A stretch of 34,554 nucleotides of DNA. Origin: Pseudacidovorax intermedius. GTDB lineage: Bacteria; Pseudomonadota; Gammaproteobacteria; Burkholderiales; Burkholderiaceae_C. Positions 3,310 to 10,900 of this stretch are shown in pieces. The stretch is from positions 1-34,554 of the forward strand of contig NZ_LDSL01000180.1 in assembly GCF_001476815.1 (NCBI RefSeq), in the 5' to 3' direction. Made by a program: the position numbers and the translations under genes. The notes beneath the pieces were generated by a model. The model searched no databases. It was given only the letters and a program-made list of their open reading frames with translations, and was not told the DNA's origin. Position 1 is the first letter of the stretch. The number at the start of each line of letters is the position of its first letter.

Positions 3310-6123
3310 TCAGCGCAGTTCGTCGAGCAGCCGGCGTGCCTCTTCCTGCACCGCGCCGCTGCTGTCGGCGACGATTTCCTCCAGCAGCGTGCGGGCGCCG
3401 TCGGGGTCGCCCAGGGCGTGCAGCTCGCGCGCCAGCGACAGCTTCACGCTGTCGGCGCTCTCGCCCGGGCCGGCGTCGATGCCGGTCGGGATGTTGAGCT
3501 GCAGGTCCATCGGCTGCGTGTCGGCAGGGCCGGTCATGGATGCGTGGAAGTCGCGGCTGAAGATGTCGGCGCCGCCCATCGACAGCGGCGCACGTAGCGT
3601 CGCCGGCTCGGTGCGCAGGTCGTCCGGCGGCAGGTGCGGGCCGCCGTGCGGCTCCAGCTCGGCCGGCGCGGTGTCGAAGTCGTTGCTCAGGTCGCGCATC
3701 GGCTCGTGGCGCAGCGGCGCGGGAATGGTCGGCTCGTCGCTCGCAGTGCGCAGGCTCGGCGGCAGCGTGGGCGGCGCCGGCGGCTGGGTGGCCGCACCGA
3801 AGCCGGAGGGCTCGATGCCGATGTCCTTGTGCGCCGCCGCCAGCGGGTTGAAGCCGGGCGGGGCCGCTGCCGGCGAAGGCGCCGGTGCCGGTGGCTGCGT
3901 GGTGGGCGCATCGGCTGGCGGCAGGTCCAGGTCCAGGTCGAAGTCCAGCGGCGCGACCGAGGGCAGGAAGCCCTGTGACTTGGATTCCTCCGTCGCCAGG
4001 GCGGCGTCGAGCGCCGCGCCGCCCGCCAGACCCGCGGCCGCCGCCGACGCGGCGCCCGAGCCGGCCGGCGGCCGCAGCGGCGCATCGCCGGCCGACAGGC
4101 CGTTGTCGTAGAGCGGGTTGTCCGGATCGAGCCCGCGGCCCAGTTCCTGTGCACGGCTCCAGTCGGCGCCCTTGCCGTCGGTCAGGCTGCGCAGTTCGAG
4201 CGCCAGCAGTTCGAAGGCACGGGCGTCGCGCCGGCGCGCATAGATCTCGAGCAGCTTGACCTGGACGGCAGTGCGCTCCGGTGCCGCGCGCAGGGCTTCC
4301 TTGAGGATTTCCTCGGCCTGCAGGTCACGGCCGTAGGCCAGGTAGACATCGGCCTCGGCCACCGGATCCACGTCGCCGGCATCGAGCTGGCTGGGCGAAT
4401 AGTGCAGCGAGGACGCGCCGCCGTGGTCGTCCCGGGTGTCGACGGTGGCGCCGCCGCTGCCGCCGATGTAGCCCTCCTTCTGAAGGCTTTCGGGGAACAT
4501 GCTGTCCGCCGCGTCGTTCTGCTTCTTCCGGCGCCGCCGTGCGGCGGCCAGCGCCAGCAGAAGGAGCAGCAGCACCACGGCACCGCCACCCAGCAGCAAC
4601 GGCTGGGCGAGCAGGGAGGCGAGGAAGCCGTCGTCATCTGCCGCCGCCGCGGCGGCCGGCGGCGTGGCGGGCGCAGGCGCCGGCCGGGGGGCTGCCGCGC
4701 CCGAGGCGGCGGCCGACGCGGGCGCGGCGGGCGTGGTGGCCGTGCCGGCACCCGCCGGCGACGAAGCGCCGGCCAGGGGCGCCGGCGCTGCGGCACCCGC
4801 AGGCGCCGGGACCGTCGCCGTGCCAGCCGCGCCAGGTGCGGGCGCGGCCGAACTGGCGGTCCCGGCCGGGACCGGCGCGGCCGCTGCCGGGTTCGCGGGG
4901 CTGGCGGGCGCCGGCACCGGCGCGGCGGACGAACTGCCGGTCGTGCCCTGGAGCCGGTTCAGTTCCTCGATGTTGCGAGACAGCTCGGCCACGCGGGTGT
5001 TCGATTCCTGCGCCTGGCGCTCGCGGGCCAGGCGTTCCTCGGGCTGGCCCGGGGCGTTGCCGCGCGAGATGGTCAGGCGGTCCGGCGAGGCGGCGGCCGC
5101 GGCCCGGTCCTGCACGTTGGCCTGCAGGCCGCCGGAGGACTGGCGGTCGGCACCGCCGACGTTCATCGTCGGTGCATTGCCCGCCAGGCGCTGGCGGTAG
5201 CTGTTGAAGTCGCGGCTCTGGGCCACGATGGTGCGGCGGGCTTCCTCGGGCGGCGTGGCGCGGGCGTCCTCGGCCGAGGGCATCTGCAGCACGGCCCCTG
5301 CCCGCAGGCGGTTGACGTTGTTGCCCGCGAAGGCCGAGGGATTGGCCCGGAGCATGGCCACCAGCATCTGGTCGAGCGAGACGTCGGCCGGCTTGCTGGC
5401 CGCGGCGATGCCGCCGGCCGTGTCGCCGCGGCGCACCGCGACGGCGCCAGCGGCCGGCACCGGGGGCGCCGAGACCGGGGGCGCCGCAGCAGGGGCGGGT
5501 GCCGGCGGCACGGCGACGGCCGCCGGCGCTTCGGCCGGCACGGGCCGGCGACGGTTGCCGGCGGAGGCGGGCGCCGACACCTGCGGCGGCAGCGGTGCGA
5601 CCTGGCGCTCGCTCGTGGTGCCAGCGGCAGTGCCGGGCGGGGCGGACGCACTCGGTGCCACGGGCGGCGGATCGATCAGCGCGGTGTAGTCGCGCATCAG
5701 CCGTCCGCTGGGGGAATTGGCTTCCAGCAGGATGTCGACGAAGGGATCGTTCATCGGCCGGATGCCGGTGAGGCTGACCACGTAGCCGTTGCCCCGCCGC
5801 TGGACCGTGCTGCGCACGCCGTTGAGCGCGTCCGAGAAGCCCATGCCCGCCCGCTGGAAGGCCTGCGGCGGCGCCAGCCGCACCTGCAGGTTGGCGGCCT
5901 CGGCCGGGGTGACCTCGGTCACTTCCACTTCGGCGCGCAGCGGCTCGCCCAGGGACGACAGCACGTTGAGCCGGCCGAGCGTCAGGGCATCGGCCTGCGT
6001 GCCCCACAGCCCGCAGGCGGCCGCAACCGCCAGCGCAAGGGAGGAAATTCGAAACCGGCGCGGGGCCGCCGCTGCGGCGCCTTCGCACCGAACGGCCTGC
6101 GCCGGCGGCGAGAGTCTTGTCAT
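3310..6123 (-). CDS. fimV: FimV/HubP-like polar hub and pilus-assembly protein
   Basis: Large inner-membrane protein of the FimV/HubP family, known to organise cell-pole proteins and type IV pilus assembly. Measured from the ATG at 6123 (937 aa): signal peptide with probable cleavage after ADA at about residue 46; conserved N-terminal domain with LNVLSSLGEPLRAEVEV; LysM-like peptidoglycan-binding segment at about 228-283; charged coiled-coil stretch at about 365-393; Ala/Pro-rich linker at about 395-495; one membrane helix at about 508-529 followed by an Arg/Lys cluster; a cytoplasmic tetratricopeptide-like FimV repeat at about 585-650; acidic linker; and the conserved C-terminal FimV motif (KLSLARELHALGDPDGARTLLEEI). 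A TTG start at 6180 would add 19 residues ahead of the signal peptide and is less likely. It lies between asd and truA. Confidence 0.92.
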   Translation of the reverse strand: MTRLSPPAQAVRCEGAAAAAPRRFRISSLALAVAAACGLWGTQADALTLGRLNVLSSLGEPLRAEVEVTEVTPAEAANLQVRLAPPQAFQRAGMGFSDALNGVRSTVQRRGNGYVVSLTGIRPMNDPFVDILLEANSPSGRLMRDYTALIDPPPVAPSASAPPGTAAGTTSERQVAPLPPQVSAPASAGNRRRPVPAEAPAAVAVPPAPAPAAAPPVSAPPVPAAGAVAVRRGDTAGGIAAASKPADVSLDQMLVAMLRANPSAFAGNNVNRLRAGAVLQMPSAEDARATPPEEARRTIVAQSRDFNSYRQRLAGNAPTMNVGGADRQSSGGLQANVQDRAAAAASPDRLTISRGNAPGQPEERLARERQAQESNTRVAELSRNIEELNRLQGTTGSSSAAPVPAPASPANPAAAAPVPAGTASSAAPAPGAAGTATVPAPAGAAAPAPLAGASSPAGAGTATTPAAPASAAASGAAAPRPAPAPATPPAAAAAADDDGFLASLLAQPLLLGGGAVVLLLLLLALAAARRRRKKQNDAADSMFPESLQKEGYIGGSGGATVDTRDDHGGASSLHYSPSQLDAGDVDPVAEADVYLAYGRDLQAEEILKEALRAAPERTAVQVKLLEIYARRRDARAFELLALELRSLTDGKGADWSRAQELGRGLDPDNPLYDNGLSAGDAPLRPPAGSGAASAAAAGLAGGAALDAALATEESKSQGFLPSVAPLDFDLDLDLPPADAPTTQPPAPAPSPAAAPPGFNPLAAAHKDIGIEPSGFGAATQPPAPPTLPPSLRTASDEPTIPAPLRHEPMRDLSNDFDTAPAELEPHGGPHLPPDDLRTEPATLRAPLSMGGADIFSRDFHASMTGPADTQPMDLQLNIPTGIDAGPGESADSVKLSLARELHALGDPDGARTLLEEIVADSSGAVQEEARRLLDELR

Positions 6124-6186
6124 GCTGTCGCGGGCCGTGCCCGATAAATGTAAGTAGACGTTAACACTCGCGCTGCTCAATCACAA

Positions 6187-6214
6187 GGCGCCCCGTCGTC
6201 GGGGCCGGGGCGCC
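6187..6214 (-). terminator. Candidate terminator of asd
   Basis: Bases 6187-6194 and 6207-6214 form a perfect 8-bp GC stem with a 12-base loop. On the minus strand it is followed by TTGTGATT, a weak U tract. It lies 52 bases after the asd stop and before fimV, so it may separate the two genes or only dampen readthrough. Confidence 0.45.
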
Positions 6215-6228
6215 GTGTTCGGTGCCGG

Positions 6229-6259
6229 CGTCGTGCGTCGCCGTTCGCCACGCACGACG
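6229..6259. repeat. Second hairpin between asd and fimV
   Basis: Bases 6229-6238 and 6250-6259 are a perfect 10-bp inverted repeat with an 11-base loop, beginning 7 bases after the asd stop codon. There is no U tract. It could protect the 3' end of the asd message or act together with the hairpin at 6187-6214. Confidence 0.5.
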
Positions 6260-6265
6260 GCGGGC

Positions 6266-7396
6266 TCAGGCCTCCAGCAGGATGCGCAGCATGCGGCGCA
6301 GCGGTTCGGCCGCGCCCCACAGCAACTGGTCGCCGATGGTAAAGGCACCGAGGTACTCCGGTCCCATGGCCATCTTTCGCAGCCGGCCGACCGGGATGGT
6401 CATGGTGCCGGTCACGGCGACCGGCGTCAGATCCTTCAGCGTGGCCTCGCGCGTATTGGGCACCACCTTCACCCAGTCGTTGTCGGCCGCGATCATGGCC
6501 TCGATGTCGGCCAGCGGCACGTCCTTCTTCAGCTTGAAGGTCAGCGCCTGGCTGTGGCAGCGCATCGCGCCCACGCGCACGCAGAAGCCGTCGACCGGCA
6601 CGGCGGGGCTGCCGAAGCCCTCGCCCTGGCCGAGGATCTTGTTGGTCTCGGCCATGCCCTTCCATTCTTCCTTGGACATGCCGTTGCCCAGGTCCTTGTC
6701 GATCCAGGGGATCAGCGAGCCGCCCAGGGGCACGCCGAAGTTGGCGGTTTCGTCGCCCGACAGGCTGCGCTGCCTGGCGATGACCTGGCGGTCGATCTCG
6801 AGGATGGCGCTCTTCGGGTCGTCGAGCAGGGCCTTCACTTCGCTGTAGAGCGTGCCGTACTGCGTGAGCAGTTCGCGCATGTGCTGGGCGCCGCCGCCCG
6901 ATGCGGCCTGGTAGGTCTGGGTGCTCATCCACTCGACCAGGCCCGCCTTGTAGAGCGCGCCCACACCCATCAGCATGCAGCTGACGGTGCAGTTGCCGCC
7001 GATCCAGTTGCGGCCGCCGTCGGCGAGCGCGTTCTTGATCACGGGCATGTTCACGGGGTCGAGCACGATGACCGCGTCGTCCTTCATGCGCAGGGTGGAG
7101 GCGGCGTCGATCCAGTGGCCCTTCCAGCCGGCGGCGCGCAGCTTGGGGAAGACCTCGGTGGTGTAGTCGCCGCCCTGGGCGGTGATGACGATCTCGCAGC
7201 GCTTGAGCTGCTCGATGTCGAAGGCGTCCTGAAGCGTGGTCTCGTTCTTCGCCATGGCGGGCGCCTTGCCGCCGGCGTTGGAGGTGGAGAAGAACAGCGG
7301 CTCGATCAGGTCGAAATCCTTCTCGGCCACCATGCGGTCCATCAGGACCGAGCCGACCATGCCGCGCCAGCCGACCAAACCTACCAACTTGCTCAT
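6266..7396 (-). CDS. asd: Aspartate-semialdehyde dehydrogenase
   Basis: NADPH-dependent enzyme that reduces aspartyl-4-phosphate to aspartate-4-semialdehyde, the branch point to lysine/diaminopimelate, threonine, isoleucine and methionine. It is 376 aa from [10 protein letters not shown] and resembles the E. coli-type enzyme. The nucleotide-binding glycine motif is [10 protein letters not shown], the catalytic cysteine is C136 in GGNCTVS, and the substrate Arg and catalytic His are R274 and H281 in [11 protein letters not shown]. The start is set by Shine-Dalgarno sequence GAAAGGG, 8 bases before the ATG. It sits in its own transcription unit behind the leuB terminator, preceded by an unusual leader (7403-7623) that carries a Thr/Ile/Lys-rich short ORF and alternative hairpins. 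Confidence 0.97.
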
Positions 7397-7402
7397 GTCA
7401 AA

Positions 7403-7446
7403 AGCCCTTTCAGAGTCAAACAAAGAAGACCGCGGCGAAAGGGGCT
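7403..7446 (-). promoter_or_regulatory. Possible sequestration of the asd Shine-Dalgarno sequence
   Basis: In the asd transcript, AGCCCCUUUC (7446 down to 7437) can pair with the Shine-Dalgarno region GAAAGGGCU (7411 down to 7403). Seven pairs are contiguous, extending to nine with one bulged C, and the loop is 25 bases. The pairing would hide the asd ribosome-binding site. It abuts the hairpin at 7445-7473, so the two could act together. This is a sequence-complementarity prediction only. Confidence 0.4.
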
Positions 7447-7500
7447 GGCCCCGCCTGGCTCGTCCGGGGCCAGGGGGAAGGCACGCGCGACGAACCAGGC
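7445..7500 (-). promoter_or_regulatory. Candidate attenuator: two alternative RNA helices before asd
   Basis: Helix A pairs 7465-7473 with 7445-7453 (9 perfect pairs, 11-base loop 7454-7464). Helix B pairs 7489-7500 with 7453-7464 (12 pairs including one G-U), using the whole loop of helix A. Helix B's 5' arm begins 5 bases after the stop codon of the Thr/Ile/Lys short ORF. A ribosome that reaches the stop would cover it, while one stalled on the Thr codons would leave it free. This is the geometry of a ribosome-mediated attenuator. The tail after helix A is only CCCCUUUC, so factor-independent termination would be weak. Confidence 0.5.
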
Positions 7501-7504
7501 TGGG

Positions 7505-7609
7505 TCAGCCCTTAATGGTCGTCGTGGTTTTGGTGATGGATGCGCGCACGGCAGTGCCGGCCTGGGCGGCGGGCACGGTGTTCAGGACGAACGGGCGGGC
7601 GGCAAACAT
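7505..7609 (-). CDS. Putative asd leader peptide (34 aa, Thr/Ile/Lys-rich)
   Basis: Short ORF in the 5' region of asd. It begins at ATG 7609-7607 and ends at TGA 7507-7505. Residues 25-33 read ITKTTTTIK (codons ATC ACC AAA ACC ACG ACG ACC ATT AAG), so nine consecutive residues are Thr, Ile or Lys. All three are end products of the pathway that Asd feeds. The enterobacterial thrL leader peptide has a comparable Thr/Ile run. A TACAAT -10 box ends 8 bases before the ATG, so the transcript probably starts at or near the start codon and the ORF would be leaderless. The peptide itself is not expected to have a cellular role; its translation would sense charged tRNAs. It is not a recognised family. 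Confidence 0.6.
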   Translation of the reverse strand: MFAARPFVLNTVPAAQAGTAVRASITKTTTTIKG

Positions 7610-7617
7610 GGGGCGCG

Positions 7618-7623
7618 ATTGTA
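7618..7623 (-). promoter_or_regulatory. Probable -10 box of the asd transcription unit
   Basis: TACAAT on the minus strand matches the sigma-70 -10 consensus at 5 of 6 positions and follows directly after the leuB terminator. No good -35 is present: the hexamer at 17-base spacing is TGTAGG. Transcription would start near 7611-7609, essentially at the leader-peptide ATG. Confidence 0.5.
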
Positions 7624-7649
7624 GCGCGTGGCGGTGCTGTCCTACATGC

Positions 7650-7673
7650 AAAACGGCCCCGAAGGGCCGTTTT
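7650..7673 (-). terminator. Terminator of the leuCDB operon
   Basis: Perfect 10-bp stem (7650-7659 with 7664-7673) around a UUCG loop on the minus strand, with A tract before and U tract after. It starts 37 bases after the leuB stop codon and isolates asd transcription from leu transcription. Confidence 0.9.
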
Positions 7674-7710
7674 CAAACGGATGTCGCGCGCGCCCCACGG
7701 GGCAGGGCAC

Positions 7711-8781
<1,071 letters not shown>

Positions 8782-8809
8782 AAGTGGTGTTTCTGTGAGG
8801 GTGAAAGGG

Positions 8810-9460
8810 TCAGGCGATCATCTGGTGCGCGAGCCAGGGCTTGGCCGCCAGCCGCTCGGCTTCGAAGGCCTTGATCTTGTCCTTGTGGCGCAGCGTCAGG
8901 CCGATGTCGTCCAGGCCGTTCATCAGGCAGTAGCGGCGGAAGGGCTGCACCTCGAAGGGCAGTTCCTCGCCATCGGGCTTGACCACCACCTGGCGCTCCA
9001 GGTCGACGGTCAGCTCGTAGCCCGGGAAGGCGAAGACCTCGTCGAAGAGCCTGGCCACGGTGGCCTCCGGCAGCACGATGGGCAGCAGGCCGTTCTTGAA
9101 GCTGTTGTTGAAGAAGATGTCGGCGAAGCTGGGCGCGAGGATGGCGCGGAAGCCGTACTGGTCGAGCGCCCAGGGCGCGTGCTCGCGGCTGGAGCCGCAG
9201 CCGAAGTTCTTGCGCGCGAGCAGCACCGAGGCGCCCTGGTAGCGCGGCTGGTTCAGCACGAAGTCCGGGTTGGGCTTGCGGCTGGCCGGGTCCATGCCGG
9301 GCTCGCCATGGTCCAGGTAGCGCCATTCGTCGAACAGGTTGGGGCCGAAGCCGGTGCGCTTGATCGACTTGAGGAACTGCTTGGGGATGATGGCGTCGGT
9401 GTCGACGTTCTCGCGGTCCATCGGGGCGACGAGGCCCTTGTGCACGGTGAATTTCTGCAT
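8810..9460 (-). CDS. leuD: 3-isopropylmalate dehydratase small subunit
   Basis: Small (swivel-domain) subunit of isopropylmalate isomerase, which with LeuC converts 2-isopropylmalate to 3-isopropylmalate. It is 216 aa. Family motifs are the N-terminal [19 protein letters not shown], the [13 protein letters not shown] loop that contributes substrate-binding residues, and [17 protein letters not shown]. Shine-Dalgarno GGGAGCA precedes the ATG. It lies 18 bases after leuC and 28 before leuB, as expected for an operon expressing both subunits together. Confidence 0.98.
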
Positions 9461-9478
9461 GGTGTCTGCTCCCTGGCT

Positions 9479-10900
9479 TTAGGCGATGGTGCGGATGTCG
9501 ACGAAGTGGCCGCGGATGGCGGCGGCGGCAGCCATGGCGGGGCTCACCAGGTGGGTGCGTCCGCCCGCGCCCTGGCGGCCTTCGAAGTTGCGGTTGCTGG
9601 TGGAGGCGCAGCGCTCGCCCGGCTCCAGCCGGTCGGCGTTCATGGCCAGGCACATCGAGCAGCCGGGCTCGCGCCATTCGAAGCCGGCGGCCTTGAAGAC
9701 CTCGTGCAGGCCCTCGCGCTCGGCCTGTTCCTTCACCAGGCCGGAGCCGGGCACGACCATCGCCACCTTGATGTTCTTGGCCACCTTCTGGCCCAGCTTC
9801 TTCACCACCGTGGCGGCCTCGCGCATGTCTTCGATGCGGCTGTTGGTGCAGCTGCCGATGAACACCTTGTCCACGAAGATGTCGTTCATGGCCTTGTTGG
9901 GCTCCAGGCCCATGTAGGCCAGGGCGCGCTCGATCGCGCCGCGCTTGTTGGCGTCCTTTTCCTTGTCCGGATCGGGCACGCGGCCGTCGATGGGCAGCAC
10001 CATCTCGGGCGAGGTGCCCCAGGTGACCTGCGGCTTGATGTCGGCGGCATTCAGCTCGACCACGGTGTCGAAGGTGGCGTCCGGGTCGGAGTGCAGCGTC
10101 TTCCAGTAGGCGACGGCCTGGTCCCATTCCACGCCGGTGGGCGCGAGCGGGCGGTTCTTCACGTAGTCGATGGTTTTCTGGTCCACCGCCACCAGGCCGG
10201 CGCGCGCGCCGGCTTCGATGGCCATGTTGCACACCGTCATGCGGCCTTCCATCGACAGGTCGCGGATGGCGGAGCCGGCGAATTCGATGGTGTAGCCGGT
10301 GCCGCCGGCCGTGCCGATCCTGCCGATGATGGCCAGCACGATGTCCTTGGCGGTGCACCCCAGGGGCAGCTTGCCCTCGACCTTGACCAGCATGTTCTTG
10401 GCCTTCTTGGCCAGCAGGGTCTGCGTGGCCATCACGTGCTCGACCTCGCTGGTGCCGATGCCATGCGCCAGCGCGCCGAAGGCGCCGTGGGTGGAGGTGT
10501 GGCTGTCGCCGCACACCACCGTCATGCCCGGCAGCGTGGCGCCGTTCTCGGGGCCGATCACGTGCACGATGCCCTGGCGCTTGGACAGGAAGGGGAAGAA
10601 GGCGGCGGCGCCGAATTCCTCGATGTTGGTGTTCAGCGTCGTGACCTGTTCCTTGCTGATCGGATCGGCGATGCCGTCGTAGCCGCGCTCCCAGCCGGTG
10701 GTGGGCGTGTTGTGGTCGGCAGTGGCCACCACCGAGCTGATGCGCCACAGCTTGCGATTGGCCTGGCGCAGGCCTTCGAAGGCCTGCGGGCTGGTCACTT
10801 CGTGCACCAGGTGGCGGTCGATGTAGAGGACGGCGGTGCCGTCTTCCTCGGTGTGGACGACGTGCTCGTCCCAGATCTTGTCGTAGAGCGTGCGGGCCAT
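9479..10900 (-). CDS. leuC: 3-isopropylmalate dehydratase large subunit
   Basis: Catalytic [4Fe-4S] subunit of isopropylmalate isomerase, in the aconitase superfamily. It is 473 aa. The three cluster-ligand cysteines are C351 in [12 protein letters not shown] and C414 and C417 in CSMCLAMN. The active-site [26 protein letters not shown] block is intact. It is the first structural gene after the LysR regulator, with a 43-base gap and no visible terminator between them, so regulator and enzyme may share a transcript. Confidence 0.98.

Follow-up and report, generated by a model that had tools for sequence, protein, structure and literature searches.

A short open reading frame (ORF) closing with a run of Thr, Ile and Lys codons, together with the RNA that follows it, very probably serves as a supply sensor with a refolding RNA in many Burkholderiales. 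Judged from the sequences, the element is most likely a cis-acting leader-peptide attenuator of asd. This function had been suggested in an earlier note on the Pseudacidovorax intermedius locus, and it is supported by what a comparison of related loci shows: a conserved run, a -10-like box near the ATG, alternative helices and a place before asd. Asd catalyses a step that comes before the pathway divides into the routes to Thr, Ile, Met, Lys and diaminopimelate, the latter for the cell wall. With a short ORF in cis upstream of asd that is rich in codons for products of the pathway, the locus has one hallmark of an amino acid leader-peptide attenuator. From these features we infer that the leader is translated, that ribosomes stall on it, and in which direction asd responds.

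The stretch of DNA analysed, 34,554 nt of P. intermedius contig NZ_LDSL01000180.1, is referred to as the window. The minus-strand ORF of the earlier note, a 34-codon frame ahead of asd with ITKTTTTIK at residues 25-33, was found at 7505-7609, and the TACAAT described 8 bases ahead of its ATG at 7618-7623. From the end of the leader ORF to the downstream ATG the distance is 108 nt; the downstream gene is taken to be asd, following that note and knowledge of the family. The features of the locus are as follows.

7505..7609, minus strand: leader ORF, 34 codons plus TGA, translation MFAARPFVLNTVPAAQAGTAVRASITKTTTTIKG
7511..7537, minus strand: Thr/Ile/Lys run ITKTTTTIK, codons 25-33, assigned by the residue make-up of 124 distinct stand-alone leaders
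7618..7623, minus strand: TACAAT, a -10-like box spaced 8 nt from the leader ATG, assigned by box comparison across loci
6269..7396, minus strand: asd, aspartate-semialdehyde dehydrogenase, 91-94% identical to Asd of the named relatives heading the match list
7405..7410, minus strand: Shine-Dalgarno sequence AAAGGG of asd, assigned by its location relative to the asd ATG at 7396
7711..8781, minus strand: leuB, whose C-terminus bears the run in type-B relatives (see below)
7650..7673, minus strand: palindrome AAAACGGCCCTTCGGGGCCGTTTT 3' of leuB, terminator-like by eye and not counted by the terminator scan

Two other genes of the same genome, hom and lysC, were examined for ORFs of at least 10 codons ending no more than 450 nt upstream, and no similar leader was detected.

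To describe conservation, the 80 named loci whose Asd is most similar were picked regardless of the presence of a leader. They are close relatives and represent an uneven sample (Acidovorax, Hydrogenophaga, Limnohabitans, Rhodoferax, Simplicispira, Roseateles, Ideonella, Aquabacterium and others). In 77 of them, a homologous Thr/Ile/Lys run is located closely upstream of asd, 59 times in a stand-alone leader (type A) and 18 times fused to LeuB (type B). The run is absent upstream of asd in two loci of this set (L021 and L067), and a third (L054) offers only 40 nt of upstream sequence. When a covariance model was built from the run and the RNA after it (R1; alignment A1, 50 sequences), it found matches in 292 of the 399 genomes of the window's family, spread over 115 of its 141 genera, with a single site for each genome listed; the other 107 genomes gave no match. 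In an order-wide sample of 300 genomes nine were matched, each within the window's family. A further set of 90 loci (L112-L201; 89 obtained by model match and L197 by Asd), in which some genomes or genera are repeated, contained 70 type A and 16 type B loci according to a regular expression; in the other four the run was evident by eye, one or two residues off the pattern. Fourteen of the 107 genomes negative for R1 were inspected: two clearly contain a LeuB-borne run and the RNA (L242, L247), three contain degenerate remnants (L248, L251, L253), and in nine the run was not seen.

The comparison of relatives called for in the earlier note thus finds the ORF, the run and the box near the ATG kept while the remaining peptide diverges. 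The association with asd and the admixture of Lys to Thr and Ile, which that note had regarded as unusual, both hold among the relatives. By this comparison, the leader ORF is real and strongly conserved. Some loci deserve separate mention. In the three degenerate cases, the tail of LeuB bears a T/I/K run that has degenerated, along with remnants of the RNA; these are possibly sensors that are decaying or have been retuned. In L059, L030 and L038 extra DNA extends the gap between run and asd to 205 and 150 nt, compared with about 70-130 nt elsewhere. The asd loci of two metagenome bins with contigs titled Akkermansia muciniphila and Singulisphaera (L018, L044) fall among Limnohabitans in the tree, which probably reflects binning or naming errors.

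Inspection of the peptides revealed what is kept. Among 124 distinct type-A leaders, the last ten residues consist of 45% T, 18.5% I, 18.4% K and 10% G, and the ten residues ahead of them are mainly Ala, Val, Gly and Arg. The order within the run is variable and its make-up is kept, as in ITKTITKG, TTKTTTIKG and TTIKTITKTIP among relatives. The ratio pN/pS is about 1 along the leader, run included (0.93 in the last ten codons, 1.13 in the middle and 0.78 in the front), and therefore no ordinary purifying selection is evident on the peptide as such. Of the conserved run with synonymous variation that the earlier note had proposed to look for, the T/I/K make-up was recovered, but a plain coding signal was not. 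Between codons -8 and -2, the 117 stand-alone leaders compared have 115 non-synonymous cells, of which 99 stay T, I or K (19 of 25 when distinct variants are counted), with 22% expected from single changes; the cells are related by descent, and a T/I/K pattern that missed four of 90 had been used to pre-filter the loci. The corresponding figure for a control stretch is 44 of 452. The front of the leader is mostly similar to MFAARPF and is wholly replaced in L150, L160, L171 and L173, which retain the run. Because the run persists in genera that have exchanged the front, these data suggest that the front serves as a spacer.

Stand-alone leaders are also marked by their upstream sequence. In 122 of 126 stand-alone loci, a TANAMT box precedes the ATG chosen as the start by 6-10 nt; in shuffled DNA, such a box occurs at 4-11 nt in 0.9%. 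When the search admitted any in-frame start lying 15-60 codons upstream, with the box 4-11 nt ahead of it, all 128 type-A loci (two of which represent one genome of a second family) and none of 35 type-B loci were positive. At least four of six matches to TTGACA at normal spacing were present in only nine of 126 type-A loci, and a sigma-70 site with a -35 region was not found at positions 7380-7760 of the window. Normal spacing of the box predicts that transcription starts at the leader ATG or within about 2 nt of it. The notion of a leaderless leader ORF therefore gains from the comparison, in which the box has a fixed place before an in-frame ATG. About 50 nt upstream of the type-A leader ATG, a motif TGTMAG was noticed in 33 of 126 loci (for example L008, L149 and L168; expectation from shuffled sequences 1.6), separated from the -10-like box by 28 nt in 23 and by 26 nt in seven of the 33. 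It is too distant for a -35 region and could perhaps be a regulator site.

In type B, the run forms the C-terminus of LeuB, in frame with the enzyme, and neither a box nor a separate leader is present. One LeuB ends with ..MGDAVVAA-ITKTITKG-stop, followed by a similar RNA and then by asd; in Hydrogenophaga, the C-terminal end is ..MGDAVVAAITKTITKG. Between the end of the run in LeuB and the asd match there are 69-205 nt, and a similar RNA follows the run. We consider it rather likely that the LeuB tail itself is the leader peptide, so that a ribosome finishing LeuB would read the supply of Thr, Ile and Lys and set expression of the next gene. Three genus codes (g2, g4, g162) contain both types, and therefore the sensor seems able to move onto the end of a neighbouring gene, probably by deletion of the terminator, the promoter and the front of the leader. 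On the Asd tree, the B label needs at least two changes and the starred branches force one. The tree is poorly resolved, and counting moves between A and B on it was given up for that reason. Type A appears to be the older form, because it is present in both families. Together, the two forms represent a natural experiment on the origin of an attenuator, its movement and the loss of its own promoter, and they also bear on leaderless initiation as a possible part of the design.

The RNA downstream of the run can be folded in alternative ways, which involve the following segments in the window.

7497..7511, minus strand: hairpin 1:2 around the stop codon, GGGCTG (7511-7506) with CAGCCT (7502-7497)
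7489..7504, minus strand: segment 2, CCCAGCCTGGTTCGTC, which pairs with segment 4
7469..7474, minus strand: segment 3, CCTGGC, which pairs with GCCAGG (7459-7454) of segment 4
7449..7464, minus strand: segment 4, GACGAGCCAGGCGGGG, common to both exclusive helices and containing column 91 of A1

In alignment A1, 94.3% of the cells are paired in helix 1:2, 96.5% in 2:4 and 98.4% in 3:4. Helices 2:4 and 3:4 are conserved, and they are mutually exclusive because segment 4 is common to both, and column 91, occupied by G or A, is compatible with its partner in either helix. For an off structure that combines 1:2 and 3:4 with a second hairpin and with a helix involving the Shine-Dalgarno sequence (86% of cells paired in this helix), 500 shuffles never reached the observed value for cells paired, for cells changed on both sides or for covariation score; for pairs changed on both sides, 14 of them did. 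For 2:4 alone, the corresponding numbers of shuffles as good were 82 (cells paired), six (cells changed on both sides), 20 (covariation score) and 149 (pairs changed on both sides). The earlier note had put forward no RNA mechanism; these helices, like the LeuB-fused form and the diverged form described next, go beyond the coordinates that it covered.

A diverged form was detected in a second family (code f32). The leader of one of its loci, L085, ends with ATTIKTITKTIP; searches with the whole peptide retrieved it from 12 of 249 f32 genomes, all of one genus. When 60 f32 genomes were searched for Asd, 21 of the 30 best-scoring loci had a T/I/K-rich leader. A covariance model based on 29 sequences of this family (R2, alignment A2) matched 153 of 249 genomes and nine of 25 genera, and located the diverged element before asd. 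Twelve matches in genomes outside the model were read. In the best frame ahead of the RNA, all 12 had 8-12 T, I or K among the last 12 residues, and in seven a box according to our own pattern preceded an in-frame start. The stop-codon hairpin, 80.6% paired, is formed here by the last Thr or Ile codons, and a near-invariant GC hairpin is 99.6% paired. The Shine-Dalgarno helix, which RNAalifold proposed independently, contains one compensated pair (UA in 12 rows, CG in 11, neither in four), and 493 of 500 shuffles equalled its pairs changed on both sides. The on-state helix has 80.6% of its cells paired and weak covariation. BLASTP between leaders of the two families yielded no alignment; the proposed link across families rests on residue make-up, position, box and RNA, not on sequence.

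From these features a working model can be outlined. Transcription would begin no more than about two bases from the leader ATG, and ribosomes would load on the mRNA in leaderless fashion, read the variable stretch and then reach the Thr, Ile and Lys codons directly before the stop. With ample charged tRNA, a ribosome at the stop codon would cover segment 2, and 3:4 would form; a C-rich stretch between segments 2 and 3 could then pair with the asd Shine-Dalgarno sequence, the off state. When Thr, Ile or Lys is scarce, the ribosome would stall some codons upstream and leave segment 2 free to form 2:4, enclosing the C-rich stretch in the hairpin loop, the on state. In type B, where the run ends LeuB in frame, the ribosome completing LeuB would be the sensor. 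If the model is true, a mixed T/I/K sensor explains how one shared step can answer to several end products through one short RNA.

Other explanations of the conserved element were considered. The high nucleotide conservation, which includes the run, and pN/pS of about 1 would suit an RNA element bound by a protein or a ligand, with the ORF not being the sensor. Such an element is nevertheless highly improbable, as type B continues LeuB in frame, the T/I/K class survives codon changes and reordering of the run, and a box before an in-frame start is restricted to stand-alone leaders. We find it similarly hard to credit that the nascent leader chain arrests ribosomes in response to a small molecule or drug, with tRNA charging not being what is sensed: it is the make-up that is conserved and not the order of residues, even though arrest peptides likewise show a conserved C-terminal stretch close to the stop. 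Mechanical ORFs are plentiful in the GC-rich window, and the leader might be one of them arising by chance; conservation over 115 genera and presence in the second family rule this out for practical purposes.

Within the attenuator model, the output was evaluated separately. Masking of the asd Shine-Dalgarno sequence, and hence a translational output, is favoured because the C-rich stretch lies within the loop of 2:4 and would be free with 3:4; taken by itself, this step is only slightly more likely than not. Foldings with a ribosome mask either four codons ahead of the stop (stalled) or at the stop gave a mean opening of the Shine-Dalgarno sequence of 0.44 stalled compared with 0.33 at the stop. 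A change of more than 0.2 was obtained upwards in 24 of 76 loci and downwards in five. The mean difference, stalled minus stop, was 0.109 versus 0.070 with the C-rich stretch shuffled (75 loci), in a test whose P values are too small because the loci are related. The pairing energy of the anti-Shine-Dalgarno stretch is modestly better than that of shuffles, singly significant at 0.05 in 12 of 75 loci, and swapping partners between loci gave no significant coevolution of the Shine-Dalgarno sequence and its partner (437/5000). In the window itself, the folding test predicted no switch: the Shine-Dalgarno sequence is predicted closed in both states (0.00 stalled, 0.01 at the stop), and the energy of pairing with the anti-Shine-Dalgarno stretch does not surpass that of shuffled sequences (fraction 0.61). 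A different hairpin is predicted there and in the relatives L003, L166 and L167, and it is the same in both states in the window:

7403..7446, minus strand: predicted window-clade hairpin over the asd Shine-Dalgarno sequence, AGCCCCTTTC (7446-7437) with GAAAGGGCT (7411-7403)

The same sensor could instead cut transcription short, by intrinsic or Rho-dependent termination, in the manner of classical attenuation. Most known amino acid attenuators work in this way, a hairpin AAACAGT..ACTGTTT followed by T's occurs in many loci, and the longest U run ahead of the Shine-Dalgarno sequence is at least five in 19 of 77 loci. In the other direction point U runs of at most four in 58 of 77 loci, the lack of any terminator-like site at 7380-7760 of the window in the terminator scan, and the lack of a U run after the conserved GC hairpin in A2. 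A canonical intrinsic terminator was consequently discarded for 7380-7760, and termination as the output appears possible though rather doubtful.

Leader-peptide attenuation as such is a known mechanism. The literature covered, to which the work on proteobacterial attenuators by Vitreschak (2004) did not belong, yielded neither a comparable attenuator of asd nor a description of leader-peptide regulation of asd in Burkholderiales; a term search of the main text of a B. cenocepacia start-site paper did not return the word asd. Searches of nine loci against Rfam, Thr_leader included, gave no match at the gathering threshold, and at positions 6000-9500 of the window, up to E = 5, four weak matches were obtained, none on the element. 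Nearest in codon content is thrL of E. coli and its kin (Rfam Thr_leader), a Thr/Ile-rich leader peptide before aspartate-pathway genes that is followed by alternative RNA folds. The asd leader shares this arrangement, but it targets asd alone, includes Lys, is predicted to be leaderless, and was seen without a canonical terminator and without an Rfam match.

Other systems resemble single parts of the model. Leaderless poly-Cys attenuator ORFs are described in mycobacteria (Canestrari 2020, as cited in the review PMC9031893). In common with the asd leader, they are, according to that account, leaderless short ORFs with codons for the sensed amino acid that affect downstream genes; amino acids, phylum and target gene differ. 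We know of no LeuB-like fused form of the mycobacterial ORFs. In Sinorhizobium, trpL is described in PMC7298713 as leaderless, with a transcript beginning at the ATG, and as subject to transcription attenuation by Trp; the peptide reportedly also acts in trans. From this description, trpL is a proteobacterial attenuator leader with a transcript start at the ATG, as predicted for the asd leader, from which it differs in its use of Trp, in transcription attenuation and in the trans-acting peptide. For the proposed output, translational attenuation of ermC is comparable: as outlined in PMC10219788, stalling of a ribosome on the leader causes the RNA to refold and frees the Shine-Dalgarno sequence of the next gene, the signal being an antibiotic and not amino acid supply.
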